The notes under the pieces are model-generated. The model was not told where the DNA came from and ran no database searches. It was given only the letters and a program-made list of their open reading frames with translations. The translations under genes and the position numbers were made by a program. From Anaeramoeba flamelloides (Eukaryota; Metamonada; Anaeramoebidae), in NCBI GenBank assembly GCA_027625915.1, contig JANTQA010000023.1, forward strand, positions 18,972,001 through 19,036,000: a DNA stretch of 64,000 bases, read 5' to 3'. Shown here piece by piece: positions 21,014 to 51,000 of the stretch (within the stretch, counting starts at the first letter, position 1; the number at the start of each line of letters is the position of its first letter).

Positions 21014-24000
21014 TTATTTTAATTTTTTCTCCACTTTTATTGGGTTGTTTTTATTTTTCAATTTCTTTGTAAATTTCAAAAAGAAACTGTTTGAAAAAAT
21101 TAAAATAATCAAAATGGATCCCAAAATAGGAAAAAATGCGATGATGACAAAAAACCTTTTGATTCTTTCAAAGCTCATCAATGCAAGGGGAATTCCGATA
21201 GAGTCCATTGTTGGAATCATGCATATGAAGCATATGATGTCATATATTTTTTTGCCTGGCTGGATGGAATTTTTAGTTTTGGGGTCAATAAATAAAGATC
21301 TGAAATGCCTTCTGAGCACTCGTCCGGTTATTATGGTCAAGGCTGCAATAGCGAATGTCATGTAATAGCCGGGATAAAACCCGTGGAAGATTGCAGAAAT
21401 GGCGAAGGTTATCATTGTCGATATTGATCTATTTCTGAATTTTTTATTTTCAGAATTGGTCAATTTGAGATAGACATATTGCTGGAGCCATAAGCCCGTT
21501 TCAATATTCCAGTTTTTACTAATCTCATAGGCAGACTGCGAAAGTTCGATATTCTTGGGGTTAATCATTGTTAGCGCATCCCATTTATAAGACCCATCCT
21601 CAGTAAAGCCATTAAAATTTAGCCCTGTAACGATGTTAGCTCCGATGGTAATTGTCATCCCAAAATAATATTTACAACGGATCAAAAAACCACCAAATTT
21701 GACGAGAAAGATTCTCAAAAAAAATGGTTTTGAATAGACATAATCACTCACGACAAAGTCTTCTTTAAAATGCATCTGGCCGATAATCACAATGATCAAA
21801 GATATTACTGATACAAATAATGATTTAAACACATACTTATAACGGTTGTCATTTTGTTTAGGTTTTACTTGTGTTTTCTTAAAAAATTGATTTTTGGAAT
21901 CTTCAATTAAATTTCCATTTATATGATTAAGATATCTTTTGATCCCAATTGGTGGGCCCATCAATACTGTGTTCCAATGTAGCACATATGAAAAAAACTC
22001 AAAAAAGCTTGGTAATTCTGTAATTCTGTTTTGGTTTTGGATTTTTGCTTTGGTATTGTAATGCTTCCCATCATAGTAATCCCAACTAAACTTTGTTAAT
22101 TTCATTGTTAAAACCATAAATGAACCTGTGATGTATGTACTATATTCTAAATAGTAAAAAATCATTTTATATAAATGACTTTTCAATTGGGTTAAATAGA
22201 TATGAATTGTTTTTTTTTTTTTTTTTTTTTTTTTTTTTTGAAATTTGGTGATAATTTTTAGTACAAATTTTTACAACTTATTTTTTGATTTTTGGGATTT
22301 GTTATTTTTAATTTAAAAGTGGTTTAGAAATGACACAAGAAGAAAAAAAATCATCAATTTATGAAACAAATAAATCAAACAATAATTCAAAATTGATTTC
22401 AGAATAATTATTAAAACGGTCCCAATTGGGTATTTGATTATATATATATATATATATATGTGTGTGTGTGTGTGTGTGTGTGTGTGTGTGTGTGTGTGTG
22501 TGTGTGTGTGTGTGTGTGTGTGTTTTGTGTGTGTGTGTTTGTGTGTGTGTGTGTGTTAGTGTGTGTGTGAATAATTATTGGGGGGGGTTCAATTTTATTT
22601 AAGGGGCTAGTCTCTATTTTTTTTTTTTGACCAATTTCTAAATAAGGATTCCTTATCTAGAAATATGTTTTATATTGAAAATAAATAGGGTTTTCAAATC
22701 TTAGTAATTGACAAAAAATTTTCTCAATTTCTATTAAATTTAGGTAAAAAAATTTAATAGAAATTAGTCACTTAAGGTATTTCCATTACGGTAAAAAATA
22801 ATTTTCTAAAATGGGAAAAAAAATTTTTGTAATTTTAATAGTGCCTAATGATCAATCAAAAACTAACCAACCCTTGTTGTGAAGAGTGATCGATCTCCAA
22901 AAATCGACAATTAAAAAAGAAATCATTTTTAGAAAAAAGCACCAAAGAGAGACACTCGGTTTCCAATTTAAATCGTTAGAAAATATGATAATTTTGAATA
23001 CAACTGTGTTAGTTTTGAAGTGTCGCTCTTTAGCTCTTTTTTAAGATCTCGAAGATTTTTTTTTTCCATTTTTTTCATTTTTCAAAAATGAGTTTATTTT
23101 CAATTATTTTAAATAATAATAATATTATTAATATTATTAATAAACAAGATTCAATATCTTTATTAGCTCTAGTAGATAATAAAACTATGTTTGAATCTTT
23201 TAACCAATTTCTAAATTCAAGTTTAGGAATTTGGGAAGTGCCTAGGTTTTCCAGAATTCAAAAGAATTGGTAAAATCTTTGATTTAACTCAATTCTTTTA
23301 AATTCTGGGAAAGCCTAACGAAAAGTGCCTCAAGTTCCTAGCTTTTCCAGGATTCGAAAGAATTGAGAAAAATCTTTGATTTTACTTAATTCTTCTGAAT
23401 TCCGGAAAACCTAACGACAGTTTTTTTAAATTTGAGAAATAAACCGAAAATTTATTTAAATTTTTCTTTTTATTTCTCAAAAAAAAAAAACCTAACGGCA
23501 AACAAGAGGGATTCTAAACTCCTCCCTTAAATTACAATAAAAAAAAAAAATAAAATAAAAAATAAGTTTATTTTTTTATTAAAAAAATATTTTCAAAAAT
23601 CCTTTCTTTGACAAATATAGAGAGTTACAAAACAACCACAAATTAGATTAAATTAAATCAAATTGCTTTTGTACCGAAAGAAAAAAATTTTTTTTAATTG
23701 AAGAAATTGAAATACTTGGAAATAGAAAACAAGAAAATTAATAATTTTATTTTTAAAGTATGAATTTTTTTTGTTTGGGATATCTTTTAAACTTTTTTTT
23801 TTTATTTAAAATTTTTTGTCAAAAAGATCTTATTAAAATTTTGTTTTTATTAAGCGTGAATTTTACCAACCAAAAGAAGTGTGATTTCGTAATATCATTT
23901 TTTTACAGACAACTCCTTGAGTATGGAGCAAATTCATGGGAAGTGGTGACTAGGGTCTTAAACGCAAGATTACAAATAAAAGATTTCAAAATCTTCAAAA

Positions 24001-48025: not shown

Positions 48026-51000
48026 TTAAAAATTAAAAAATGAAGTTACGTTTGTCATTTTCAATATAACAAGTAATAATAAAACAACAACAAGTAGTAT
48101 AAGAGCAATCAGACAAAGTAACCAACAAGATGTTTTTCTTGAAGATTTTTGATATTTGGAAGCTTTTCTTAATTGCTCATTCCCCTGTTTTGTTTTATGT
48201 AAAGTATCTTCAACGTTTTCATGAATCGTTTCAATTTTTTTTCCTTGACCATGTACCAAACTAAAAGAAAACAAATATTACAATTTGATTAAAAGAAATT
48301 TTTTGAATTTTAGAATTTGAAGAAATAAAAAATTAAAAAATTTTGTTATGAATGCCAGTTAAATGTAATAATAATAAAAAAAGCAGAAAATAAAAAAAAA
48401 AAAAAAAAAAAAAAAAAATAAAAAAAAGTAAAGCCAAGTTAATATATTTATATATCGAAAGTAAATAATTTTGAAACTTACAATGCCATATCTTTAAACA
48501 TTTGGTTTACCTCTAGAATTGATTGTTCAAGTTCTAAAATGCTATTTTCTCGTTCCTCAATTAAATCTGCATACCAATCAATTACATTTGATGAAATTTG
48601 AGATTGCTGTTTTTTTTGATTATTATCCATTAAAGGTGTATTTTCATCATTATCAGAACTAATTTTAAGGTAAAAAAAAATAAAATAAAAATAAATTTAA
48701 AAATTTTGTAAATTTATTTATTTATTTTTGAAGAGAGAAAATTACTTTTCTCCATGTGCTGTTTGTTTTTTCTATTTTTTTTTTTTTGAAATTTTGCTAA
48801 AAAATGAAAAATTTATTATCACTAAGTCATAATATAAATGACAAATTCTTTTTATTAATGTAATATCAGAGAAATTATTAATTGTTTTATTATTTTTATA
48901 AAATTCTGATTTTTCGATTTTTTTAATAGGAAAGATGTTGTTAGTTTTTTTTTTAAATTTAAGAAATAAAAAAAGAAAATTTATGAAATTTTCTGTTTAT
49001 TTCTTAAATAAAAAAAAAACCGCCGTTAGCTTTTCCAGAATTTAAAAGAATTGAGTAAAAGCATTGATTTTTCTCAATTCTTTTGAATTTTGGAAAAGCT
49101 AGGCACTCTAAGGCACTCTACGACACTATTCCACAGAAAATGATCGAAATTTTGTATGATATCAATATTTAACTTTACATAAATTACCATTTTTTTTTTT
49201 TTTTTTTTTTTTTACATTAAGGTAATCTATTTGTATAATTAGTAAAATTTTCGAAATATTAGAATTGATTTTGAAGTTTTCCAGTTTAAATATTTTTTGT
49301 CGTTAGGTTTTCCAAAATTCAAAAGAATGGAAAACTAGGATTTTTCACAATACTTTTGAATTCTGGAAAACTTCTGTTAGGTTTTCTTGATTTTTTTGTT
49401 TATTTGTAAAATCAATAGATTTTCGTTAGGTTTTTTTGAGTTTTCTCTTTATTTGTGAAGTTTTCTAGGTTTTTTTGAGGTTTTCTATTTTATTTGTAAA
49501 ATCTATCGATTTCCTTTAGCTTTTCTTGTGTTTTCTGTTTGATAAGAAAATCAATAGATTTTCGTTAGACTTTTTTTACTTTTTGAAATAAACCGAAATT
49601 TTATTAAAATTTTCAATTCTTTAGAAAACTTCAAAAAAACCTAGAACACTTCACAAATAAAACAGAAAACCTCAATAAAATCTGGCACTTGAATACACTC
49701 TACAACAATGTAGAACACTTCATGATAGGACTGTTTTAAATTCCAAATTGGTGTTGTTTTATAATTTTTAGATATTTTTGAACTCCCCCAACTAGTAGAA
49801 TTTTCCAATTTGATGAATCGAAAAACCTTTAATTTCAAATCTAATGATTTTAGTTCCTCAGTATAACAATTAATATTTTCATTTTCGAATGTTCAAAAAT
49901 TTAGTATCGTTTTTAATTTTTTTAAATTTAAGAAATCTAATTTTTCTATCAATTTATATTTTCTTCGGTATATTTTTAAATTTCTAGAGATCAATTTTTG
50001 TTTCATTTTTATGAATTAACTGTTGTGAATGAATATTAATTTGTAACTGATTTGTGACTGATTTATTGAAAAATATATCAATTCTTTCAAAATCACTTTG
50101 TGTCAAATCAAATATTTTTCGTCCATAATAAAGTTGACTTAAAATAAGTTTCTTGAAAAAAGTTATTTTTACAACTCAATTATTGAGTTTATTTTGTTGT
50201 AACACTTAACCGATTAAGTGTTTCCAAGTACTTTTCTACTTTTTTGAAATTATTTTCCAGATTTGGTTTTTTCGAACCAAATCCCAAGATAAAAAATATC
50301 TTTTACTTTTTTTTTATATGTAGTTTTTTTTATTATGTATAAGCTCATCCCAAATCTTTTTATTATTTCAAAGATCCTTTCTAAATTATTTTTTTAAAGG
50401 TCTCCTTCATAATAATAATATGATCATCGACATAGATTTGAACACTGACAGCTAAACGTTTTAATTTTTCTATAGAAAATGAGATATAAGCTATTTCCAA
50501 AAAATTGGGCAAATTTATTTTAAAATATATTTATTAAACTCATGTTTCAAAAAAGTATTTAAATACACAGAATCATTAAATACCATTTATAGATTACTGG
50601 AATAATTCAATTTGTTTCTTTGTATCGTATTACATAAAGAAAAAATATTAAATTTTTTGATCTCGATTTTATCTGATATTTTTTAGGGTTGAAAATTGGT
50701 GTTAATTATTTTATTTTTGATCGAAAAAATCGTTTTCATAACTTGTTTAATCTCAACAAATTTACAGATAGAATCGAAAACATATAACTGTGTTTGTTTG
50801 TTTAAAAAATCAATTGTACCCTTACCATATTTCCAATTTTTTTATTGAAATTGGTCGTACATTGTTTTCTCCAAAAAAAGTACTATTTTTTTTTTCATTT
50901 TTTAGGAATATTTCATCAAATATAATTTGAAATAAATGCCCAAGTCATTGATTCAATCGGTAGTCATATTTAACTTAATTTTTTATTGCCAATTAACGAA

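Follow-up and report, generated by a model that had tools for sequence, protein, structure and literature searches.

Hairpin arrays dispersed within mobile elements of Anaeramoeba flamelloides, a possible family of foldback-type insertions

The attC sites of integrons are hairpins with a GTTAG-like core at their foot and form directional arrays at a fixed attachment point. Clusters of short hairpins with CTAAC at their joins recur in a 64 kb stretch (hereafter the window) of contig JANTQA010000023.1 from Anaeramoeba flamelloides (Metamonada), whose genome assembly comprises 254 Mb in 76 contigs, and we tentatively read them as one family of short, non-coding, foldback-type insertion elements lying inside other mobile elements. 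Among the described systems closest to them, the foldback transposon Tetris is presented in the consulted sections of its description (PMC4079207) as non-coding and modular, with many rearranged forms and a link to satellite-like arrays, duplicating 8-10 bp of its target and carrying a middle domain between terminal inverted repeats. Bacterial REP, REPIN and BIME sequences are short palindromes in variable clusters (PMC3116915, excerpts), and one end of each REP is marked by the tag GTAG or CGTC (PMC3733652, excerpts). Helentron-associated elements (HINE, DINE-1) are non-autonomous and have short tandem arrays and a terminal palindrome; according to excerpts of two sources they make no target duplication, and uninterrupted sites with joined flanks have been found (PMC7492417, PMC4067079).

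The clusters were first read at four places of the window and then searched with three typed module seeds, and profile models for five modules (A to E) were built from copies in fetched loci (L numbers below), with training sets of one copy for E, three for C and four for D. The models confirmed the recurrence at four places given in the preliminary description, matching 23242-23496, 38133-38332, 44461-44728, 48940-49102 and 49302-49683, and none of the five matched reversed-sequence decoys. The arrays and weaker matches of the window were as follows.

23232 to 23497, forward strand: array A-A-B (A 23242-23314, A 23338-23415, B 23420-23496)
38133 to 38332, forward strand: decayed array (B-like 38133-38203, A 38214-38284, partial B 38286-38332)
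44449 to 44728, forward strand: array B-C-A-E (B 44461-44537, C arm 44533-44586, A 44591-44662, E hairpin 44684-44728)
48940 to 49131, reverse strand: array A-B (B 48940-49020, A 49025-49102, decamer leader beyond 49102)
49302 to 49683, reverse strand: nested array d-B-C-C-D-C-A, whose C/D arms pair across B in a long stem (A 49302-49371, C 49376-49429, D 49427-49468, C 49466-49519, C 49516-49568, B 49571-49643, D 49641-49683)
38798 to 38868, forward strand: weak solitary B match (E 0.0058)
39700 to 39757, forward strand: weak solitary A match (E 1.1e-4)

The module survey covered 264 kb, namely the window plus 20 sampled 10 kb pieces starting from round positions in six contigs, at a threshold of E <= 0.05, and part of the matched copies had also trained the models. 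It returned 62 module copies (20 A, 22 B, 11 C, 8 D and 1 E), with at least one module in 7 of the 20 sampled pieces. Single scattered modules, the pattern that the preliminary description had set against its own proposal, were rare: 58 of the 62 copies lay within 150 bp of another module, whereas 1000 random placements gave 5.8 on average and 20 at most. A single A alone was found in L018 and a single B alone in L020. A genome search with window 23230-23500 gave 5924 first-look candidates, 40 of which were scored, and the A-A-B core of ∼260 bp was recovered at 39 other places at 87-94% (40 of 6049 candidates scored). The hairpin clusters are a real, dispersed, abundant and unusual repeat family.

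Modules A and B were hairpins of ∼75-80 bp, and C (∼54 bp) and D were arms that have in common a stretch like AAATAAACAGAAAACTCAAGAAAA and pair across B to form nested hairpins. Two of the three hairpin kinds distinguished at the outset, A and B, were thus upheld; the third, around AATCAATAGATTTTCG, turned out to be part of the C arm. The hairpins stood head to tail in one direction. On the left the foot was either CTAG, preceded by a leader made up of ten-base units (GAAAAGTGTC, CGTCAAGTGC), or GG, preceded by a GGCGG spacer; on the right it was CTAAC, mostly followed by G; CTAAC also recurred within the arrays, besides their ends. The preliminary description had GTTAG or CTAAC at the joins. 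This holds for the motif and fails for its occurrence in either sense: CTAAC was counted 121 times and GTTAG 3 times in 42 oriented arrays (9 of 51 arrays, of unknown orientation, were left out). A G directly followed CTAAC in 99 of 121 cases in arrays versus 12 of 184 outside them; as orientation was partly set by CTAACG-containing words, this figure is somewhat circular and the scarcity of GTTAG less so. A reading of GTTAG as a telomere repeat was considered and set aside.

Module order and number differed between sites in the array readings, as initially described, and the order followed a grammar. Among neighbours within 150 bp in the 42 arrays, forward C or D arms never directly followed A (0 of 29, left neighbour) and reversed arms never directly preceded it (0 of 20, right neighbour); forward arms mostly came after B (16) or another arm, and reversed arms mostly before B (13). 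Exceptions to a strict succession of reversed arm, B and forward arm were three reversed arms running directly into a forward C without an intervening B, and seven forward arms that directly preceded a further B. The number of arms flanking B was often unequal, one against four in the 49.3-49.7 kb array, and the nest is therefore not the product of one exact inversion. In L029 one leader-A-GGCGG-B unit was repeated in tandem.

Folding of the DNA was assessed by comparing fold energies with 100-200 shuffles per place. The native fold was more stable than every shuffle for the 23.2 kb array (z -9.25), the 44.5 kb array (z -8.48) and the nested array of 49.3-49.7 kb (z -10.64), and the L068 array gave a nested fold with an extended stem across B (z -10.86). 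At 38.2 kb (38205-38350) no significant fold was found (z -0.94; 35 of 200 shuffles equally stable). Covariation of the arms was analyzed in 79 of 92 A copies (11 of unknown orientation and 2 short ones left out) and in 62 B copies, 10 of 77 having been dropped before alignment (unknown orientation or short) and 5 more before the count. In A, 2405 of 2912 cells were Watson-Crick pairs against a shuffled mean of 2383 (maximum 2408 in 500) and double changes numbered 49 against 36.2 (maximum 48); pairing was in excess at the foot pair 5/73 (CTAGC..GCTAAC versus CTAGG..CCTAAC), 23/55, 35/43 and 37/41, and in deficit at 27/51. The corresponding values for B were 1900 of 2559 against 1840 (maximum 1873) and 86 against 56.8 (maximum 75), with excess pairing at 21/69, 24/66, 25/65 and 34/56. 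Mismatches of the A consensus at 18/60, 27/51, 31/47 and 32/46 were common to many copies. The excess of double changes is real against the shuffles and limited to a few pairs, and since these shuffles ignore kinship among copies, copy families could yield the same excess. The arms mostly decay independently, and general co-variation is unsupported; the claim that they stay complementary despite drift thus stands at a few pairs only, and the covariance test proposed for it gave a weak, local excess with covariation mostly absent. Strand-biased mismatch, considered as a sign of RNA in A, was uninformative, both G.T (63 versus 72.1 expected) and A.C (171 versus 180.8) being slightly low.

Two hosts of the arrays were recognized. 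The first, R1, is a DNA-transposon candidate and measured ∼735 bp in the two copies compared; it starts with CACTAGTATG and ends near CATGATCGTG. The second is a long interspersed nuclear element (LINE) with an Exo_endo_phos endonuclease and RVT_1, i.e., of the APE/RT type (apurinic endonuclease and reverse transcriptase).

L091 82-816, and L092 22-748 (reverse): R1 copies with CAC...GTG-like ends
44085 to 44448, forward strand: left part of host R1, ending in ATATT at the array junction
23105-23231 and 23498-23575, forward strand: LINE 3'-end fragment split by the array, matching L014 8926-8800 and 8793-8729 without array
22781-23111 and about 23598-24000, forward strand: older repeat around the LINE fragment

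Arrays in R1 were 84-629 bp long and had one orientation at all junctions read. The left R1 flank stopped exactly after ATT in the window and in 11 of 13 filled copies that had both flanks; in 8 of these 13 the right array end CTAA(C/T) adjoined GG, the others being altered. The first bases of the array varied between copies (GAAAGTGTC, CCATGTC, TCGATGTC, GGAGTGTC and others). LINE arrays were placed after the codons SWK (L005, L034), HFLW (L027, window) and LGIW (window), and the SWK position was occupied in two LINE types (L005 and L034). Next to the site, YGG followed by A or G was read at R1, HFLW and LGIR, and SWK fitted less well. The 48.9 kb array adjoins the LINE codons DHFLW. The 23.2 kb array lies in a LINE 3' end after LGIW, with CCTAACG followed by GCAAAC at its right end; its array-free counterparts (L014 and L063-L067) read LGIR. 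This array sits inside the LINE 3' fragment and the fragment inside an older repeat, which is uninterrupted at window 34600-35021, L009 and L012. L033 and L034 each carried two arrays a few hundred bases apart on one LINE, those of L034 in opposite orientation.

Array-free sites were sought with host queries, each of which gave 2097 to 3033 first-look candidates, 40 of them scored. The junction of the array-free LGIR query (L014) was spanned at all 40 places scored, one of them its own, and five further LGIR places that were fetched were all array-free. Hand-joined queries were spanned at 36 of 40 scored places for R1 and at 40 of 40 for LINE SWK; joined queries favour array-free copies and these counts are no frequencies. 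Six SWK places were fetched, of which three were clean, L052 had a short extra stretch, L053 a remnant resembling an array end, and L054 was diverged. One of 20 R1 places fetched as array-free, L086, retained a CCTAACG footprint. No 8-10 bp target duplication was present, as filled versus array-free junctions of R1 and LINE LGIR showed 0-2 bp; the situation at LINE SWK was less clear. A young APE/RT LINE family (L089 whole, L014 8690-8930) was also observed, in which 40 of 40 scored 3' ends, L014's own among them, were 94-100% identical to L014; these ends are without arrays and stand beside older, array-bearing relatives.

The history of the arrays was approached through trees of host flanks and of array cores. 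The tree of the R1 left flank contained 12 filled and 19 array-free copies, with L031 (short left flank), L062, L084 and the short loci L055-L061 left out and L086 scored as array-free despite its footprint. It required 8 label changes for the filled copies, at least 4 of them forced by well-supported branches, and a single clade of array-bearing copies was rejected (approximately unbiased test, p 1.6e-5). When the flank was halved, the far half needed 9 changes (186 of 500 shuffles as low) and the array-adjacent half 7 (16 of 500); the right flank needed 8 (132 of 500). L003 and L029, with arrays of 267 and 629 bp, were neighbours in the left-flank tree (99/95) and separated in the right-flank tree. 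In the tree of 31 cores, the 11 R1-borne cores needed 3 changes, where shuffling gave 9.3 on average and never as few in 500 trials. A group of 18 cores, LINE-borne or unlabelled, had support 93/95, with one of the two L007 cores and the unlabelled L045 lying outside it; no inner branch of this tree reached the full support mark, the bootstrap was unsettled, and the host labels were taken from flank patterns (4 of 31 cores unlabelled, the R2 versus R3 split rough). Based on the core tree and the R1 flank trees, cores mostly stay within host families, with frequent change in the occupancy of sites.

The arrays have features of several known systems. Like foldback transposons, they fold back and consist of modular repeated units. 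Unlike Tetris as described in the consulted sections, they show a duplication of 0-2 bp at most and comprise several short hairpins in one direction, nested, within a few hundred bases, and they lack a single pair of long terminal inverted repeats, since an array runs from leader to CTAACG and its hairpins are local. With REP/BIME, going by the cited excerpts, they share clustered palindromes with a conserved foot, here TAG/CTA; they differ in their eukaryotic host, module size, several unrelated hairpins and location inside other mobile elements. They resemble HINE and DINE-1, within what the excerpts report, in being non-autonomous, in their tandem units and in the uninterrupted sites with joined flanks. 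Unlike them, they showed no pair of subterminal inverted repeat and palindrome at the two array ends and no TT target, and they have hairpins throughout. Helitrons typically make no target duplication; the junctions here showed 0-2 bp, with a left end that is ill-defined. A fixed attachment site, one orientation and directional joins recall integron attC arrays, from which the arrays are distinguished by much more regular stems, the lack of coding cassettes and the lack of a linked integrase in the loci looked at. An ordinary miniature inverted-repeat transposable element (MITE) has two fixed ends with terminal inverted repeats and a target duplication, which the arrays do not. The preliminary description was right that they are no simple two-ended MITE and went too far in denying them fixed ends, given the CTAACG right end, the A-A-B core and the fixed host positions. 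They are also unlike satellite DNA, being mixed, dispersed arrays and not long tandem arrays of one monomer. The suggestion of an undescribed element was borne out insofar as they matched no described family, and no description of this repeat family was found, in the open-access literature searched. A 21-base stretch of module A had no match in viral contigs, nor had window 23230-23500 in phage records.

We provisionally favour a non-autonomous family that is carried and remodelled within host transposons. An element would enter each host next to GG, without a long target duplication and by means of a putative enzyme. After entry, copies would spread mainly along with their hosts; tandem duplication, nesting and recombination at the feet of the hairpins would reshape the arrays, and some arrays would be lost and leave footprints. 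No cellular function is indicated. The family is a variant of the foldback or hairpin-mosaic kind and does not belong in full to any of the families tested. Several points weigh against this account. Since a clear target duplication is absent, insertion as a unit is inferred from the array-free sites, and the left array end in R1, with its varying first bases, is not well defined. No transposase and no autonomous copy were linked to the arrays. The filled label is distributed near randomly on the R1 left-flank tree (8 changes versus a shuffled mean of 9.8; 64 of 500 as low), its lower scatter beside the array may reflect exchange between R1 copies, which would give such a pattern, and the clustering of R1 cores argues for few transfers between host families.

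These points lead to a close and strong rival, a passive hairpin satellite. Here each host family may have captured one old array, without mobility of its own, a serious possibility in our view; the filled and array-free states could then quite conceivably have been shuffled by ectopic gene conversion and unequal recombination at the hairpins. The separate clustering of R1-borne and LINE-borne cores, the discordant flanks of L003 and L029 and the tandem unit repeat in L029 are in line with this, and the array within a LINE fragment within an older repeat shows that arrays can be carried by a host. It was given slightly more weight because the filled label clusters more on the array-adjacent than on the far half of the R1 flank. 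Passive capture is harder to reconcile with the three R1 flank trees, in each of which filled copies are mixed with array-free ones (9, 7 and 8 changes), and with arrays after the same SWK codons in two LINE types, and one point insertion would not by itself account for the varying first bases at the same nucleotide. A recombinase might instead add CTAACG-ended units serially, in fixed orientation and next to GG, which we consider unlikely; the right end would recreate the target and a folded single-stranded hairpin would be the substrate, as for attC or REP/BIME, a doubtful scheme as well. It would amount to a eukaryotic hairpin-cassette system, in which a recombinase reads the hairpin foot and adds non-coding units at a fixed transposon nucleotide, and for this too the chances appear small; we know of no integron- or REP-like accretion process in any eukaryote. 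The single orientation and recurrent right junction at the R1 junctions read, the head-to-tail directional joins and the repeated occupation of one nucleotide would fit, and the genome does contain genes for tyrosine recombinases (with PF00589, 5 of 9 candidates reached E <= 0.001; two open reading frames (ORFs) of 506 and 427 amino acids match Phage_integrase). Against it, the 3-4 kb pieces around 3 of the 5 recombinase matches (1-2 kb flanks) contained no module, and no obvious attachment sequence beyond GG was common to the hosts.

Derivation from Helitrons or Helentrons, with a hairpin and CTRR at the 3' end and rolling-circle spread without target duplication, is very improbable. The hairpins beside CTAA/CTAG and the lack of a long target duplication resemble Helitron ends, and tandem repeats are known inside non-autonomous Helentrons (PMC7492417, excerpts). 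The target was, however, not A/T or T/T at the R1 and LINE sites read (ATATT followed by GG; next to YGG), and CTAAC recurs inside the arrays, beyond their ends. A search of the 254 Mb for Helitron_like_N (PF14214) gave 0 candidates, although control genomes gave none either, and the Helitron-like module array of the preliminary description thus found no support. Selection of the hairpins as small-RNA precursors or structural RNA is hardly credible. It would explain the strong folds and the compensatory pairs (the four in B; 5/73 and 37/41 in A), but most A pairs are without excess pairing, the four A consensus mismatches are common to many copies, the 38.2 kb copy has lost its fold, and family structure alone could produce such pairs.

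Should the arrays move or grow on their own, they would be a mosaic hairpin element that has a nesting grammar and resides at exact sites in transposons, and would match no tested element kind in full. If they are passive, they show palindrome turnover in transposon families, in which one nucleotide is filled in some copies and array-free in others and nested stems have unequal numbers of arms. Given the two to three thousand candidates per host search, many natural replicates of gain, growth and loss are expected.

Further features were noted. The tyrosine recombinase genes were located at L093 1420-2940, L094 1629-2912 and L095 753-2165 (the last matched by genome search only) and have lysine/glutamate-rich tails; our guess is that they are Crypton-like or viral in origin, and no link to the arrays was found in the pieces fetched. 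The window has a G+C content of 23.5% and its ORFs include Ras, MBOAT and alpha/beta hydrolase. An unrelated long palindrome, AAAAACCGCCTCGAAAAACAGATGTTTTG...CAAAACATCTGTTTTTTCGAGGCGGTTTTT, at window 31265-31350 has a 13-base core word present nowhere else in the loci fetched and could, as a guess, be a regulatory or terminator-like hairpin. A separate dispersed repeat occurs three times in the window at ∼80% identity (39100-39400, 19106-19400, 30448-30745) and also in L013, L016, L017 and L021, and a 180-bp repeat of 90.6% identity lies in opposite orientation at 22599-22775 and 42914-43093. Strong AT skew was present over lysine/asparagine/threonine-rich ORFs, with values of 0.265 at 44001-46000 and -0.235 at 56001-58000.

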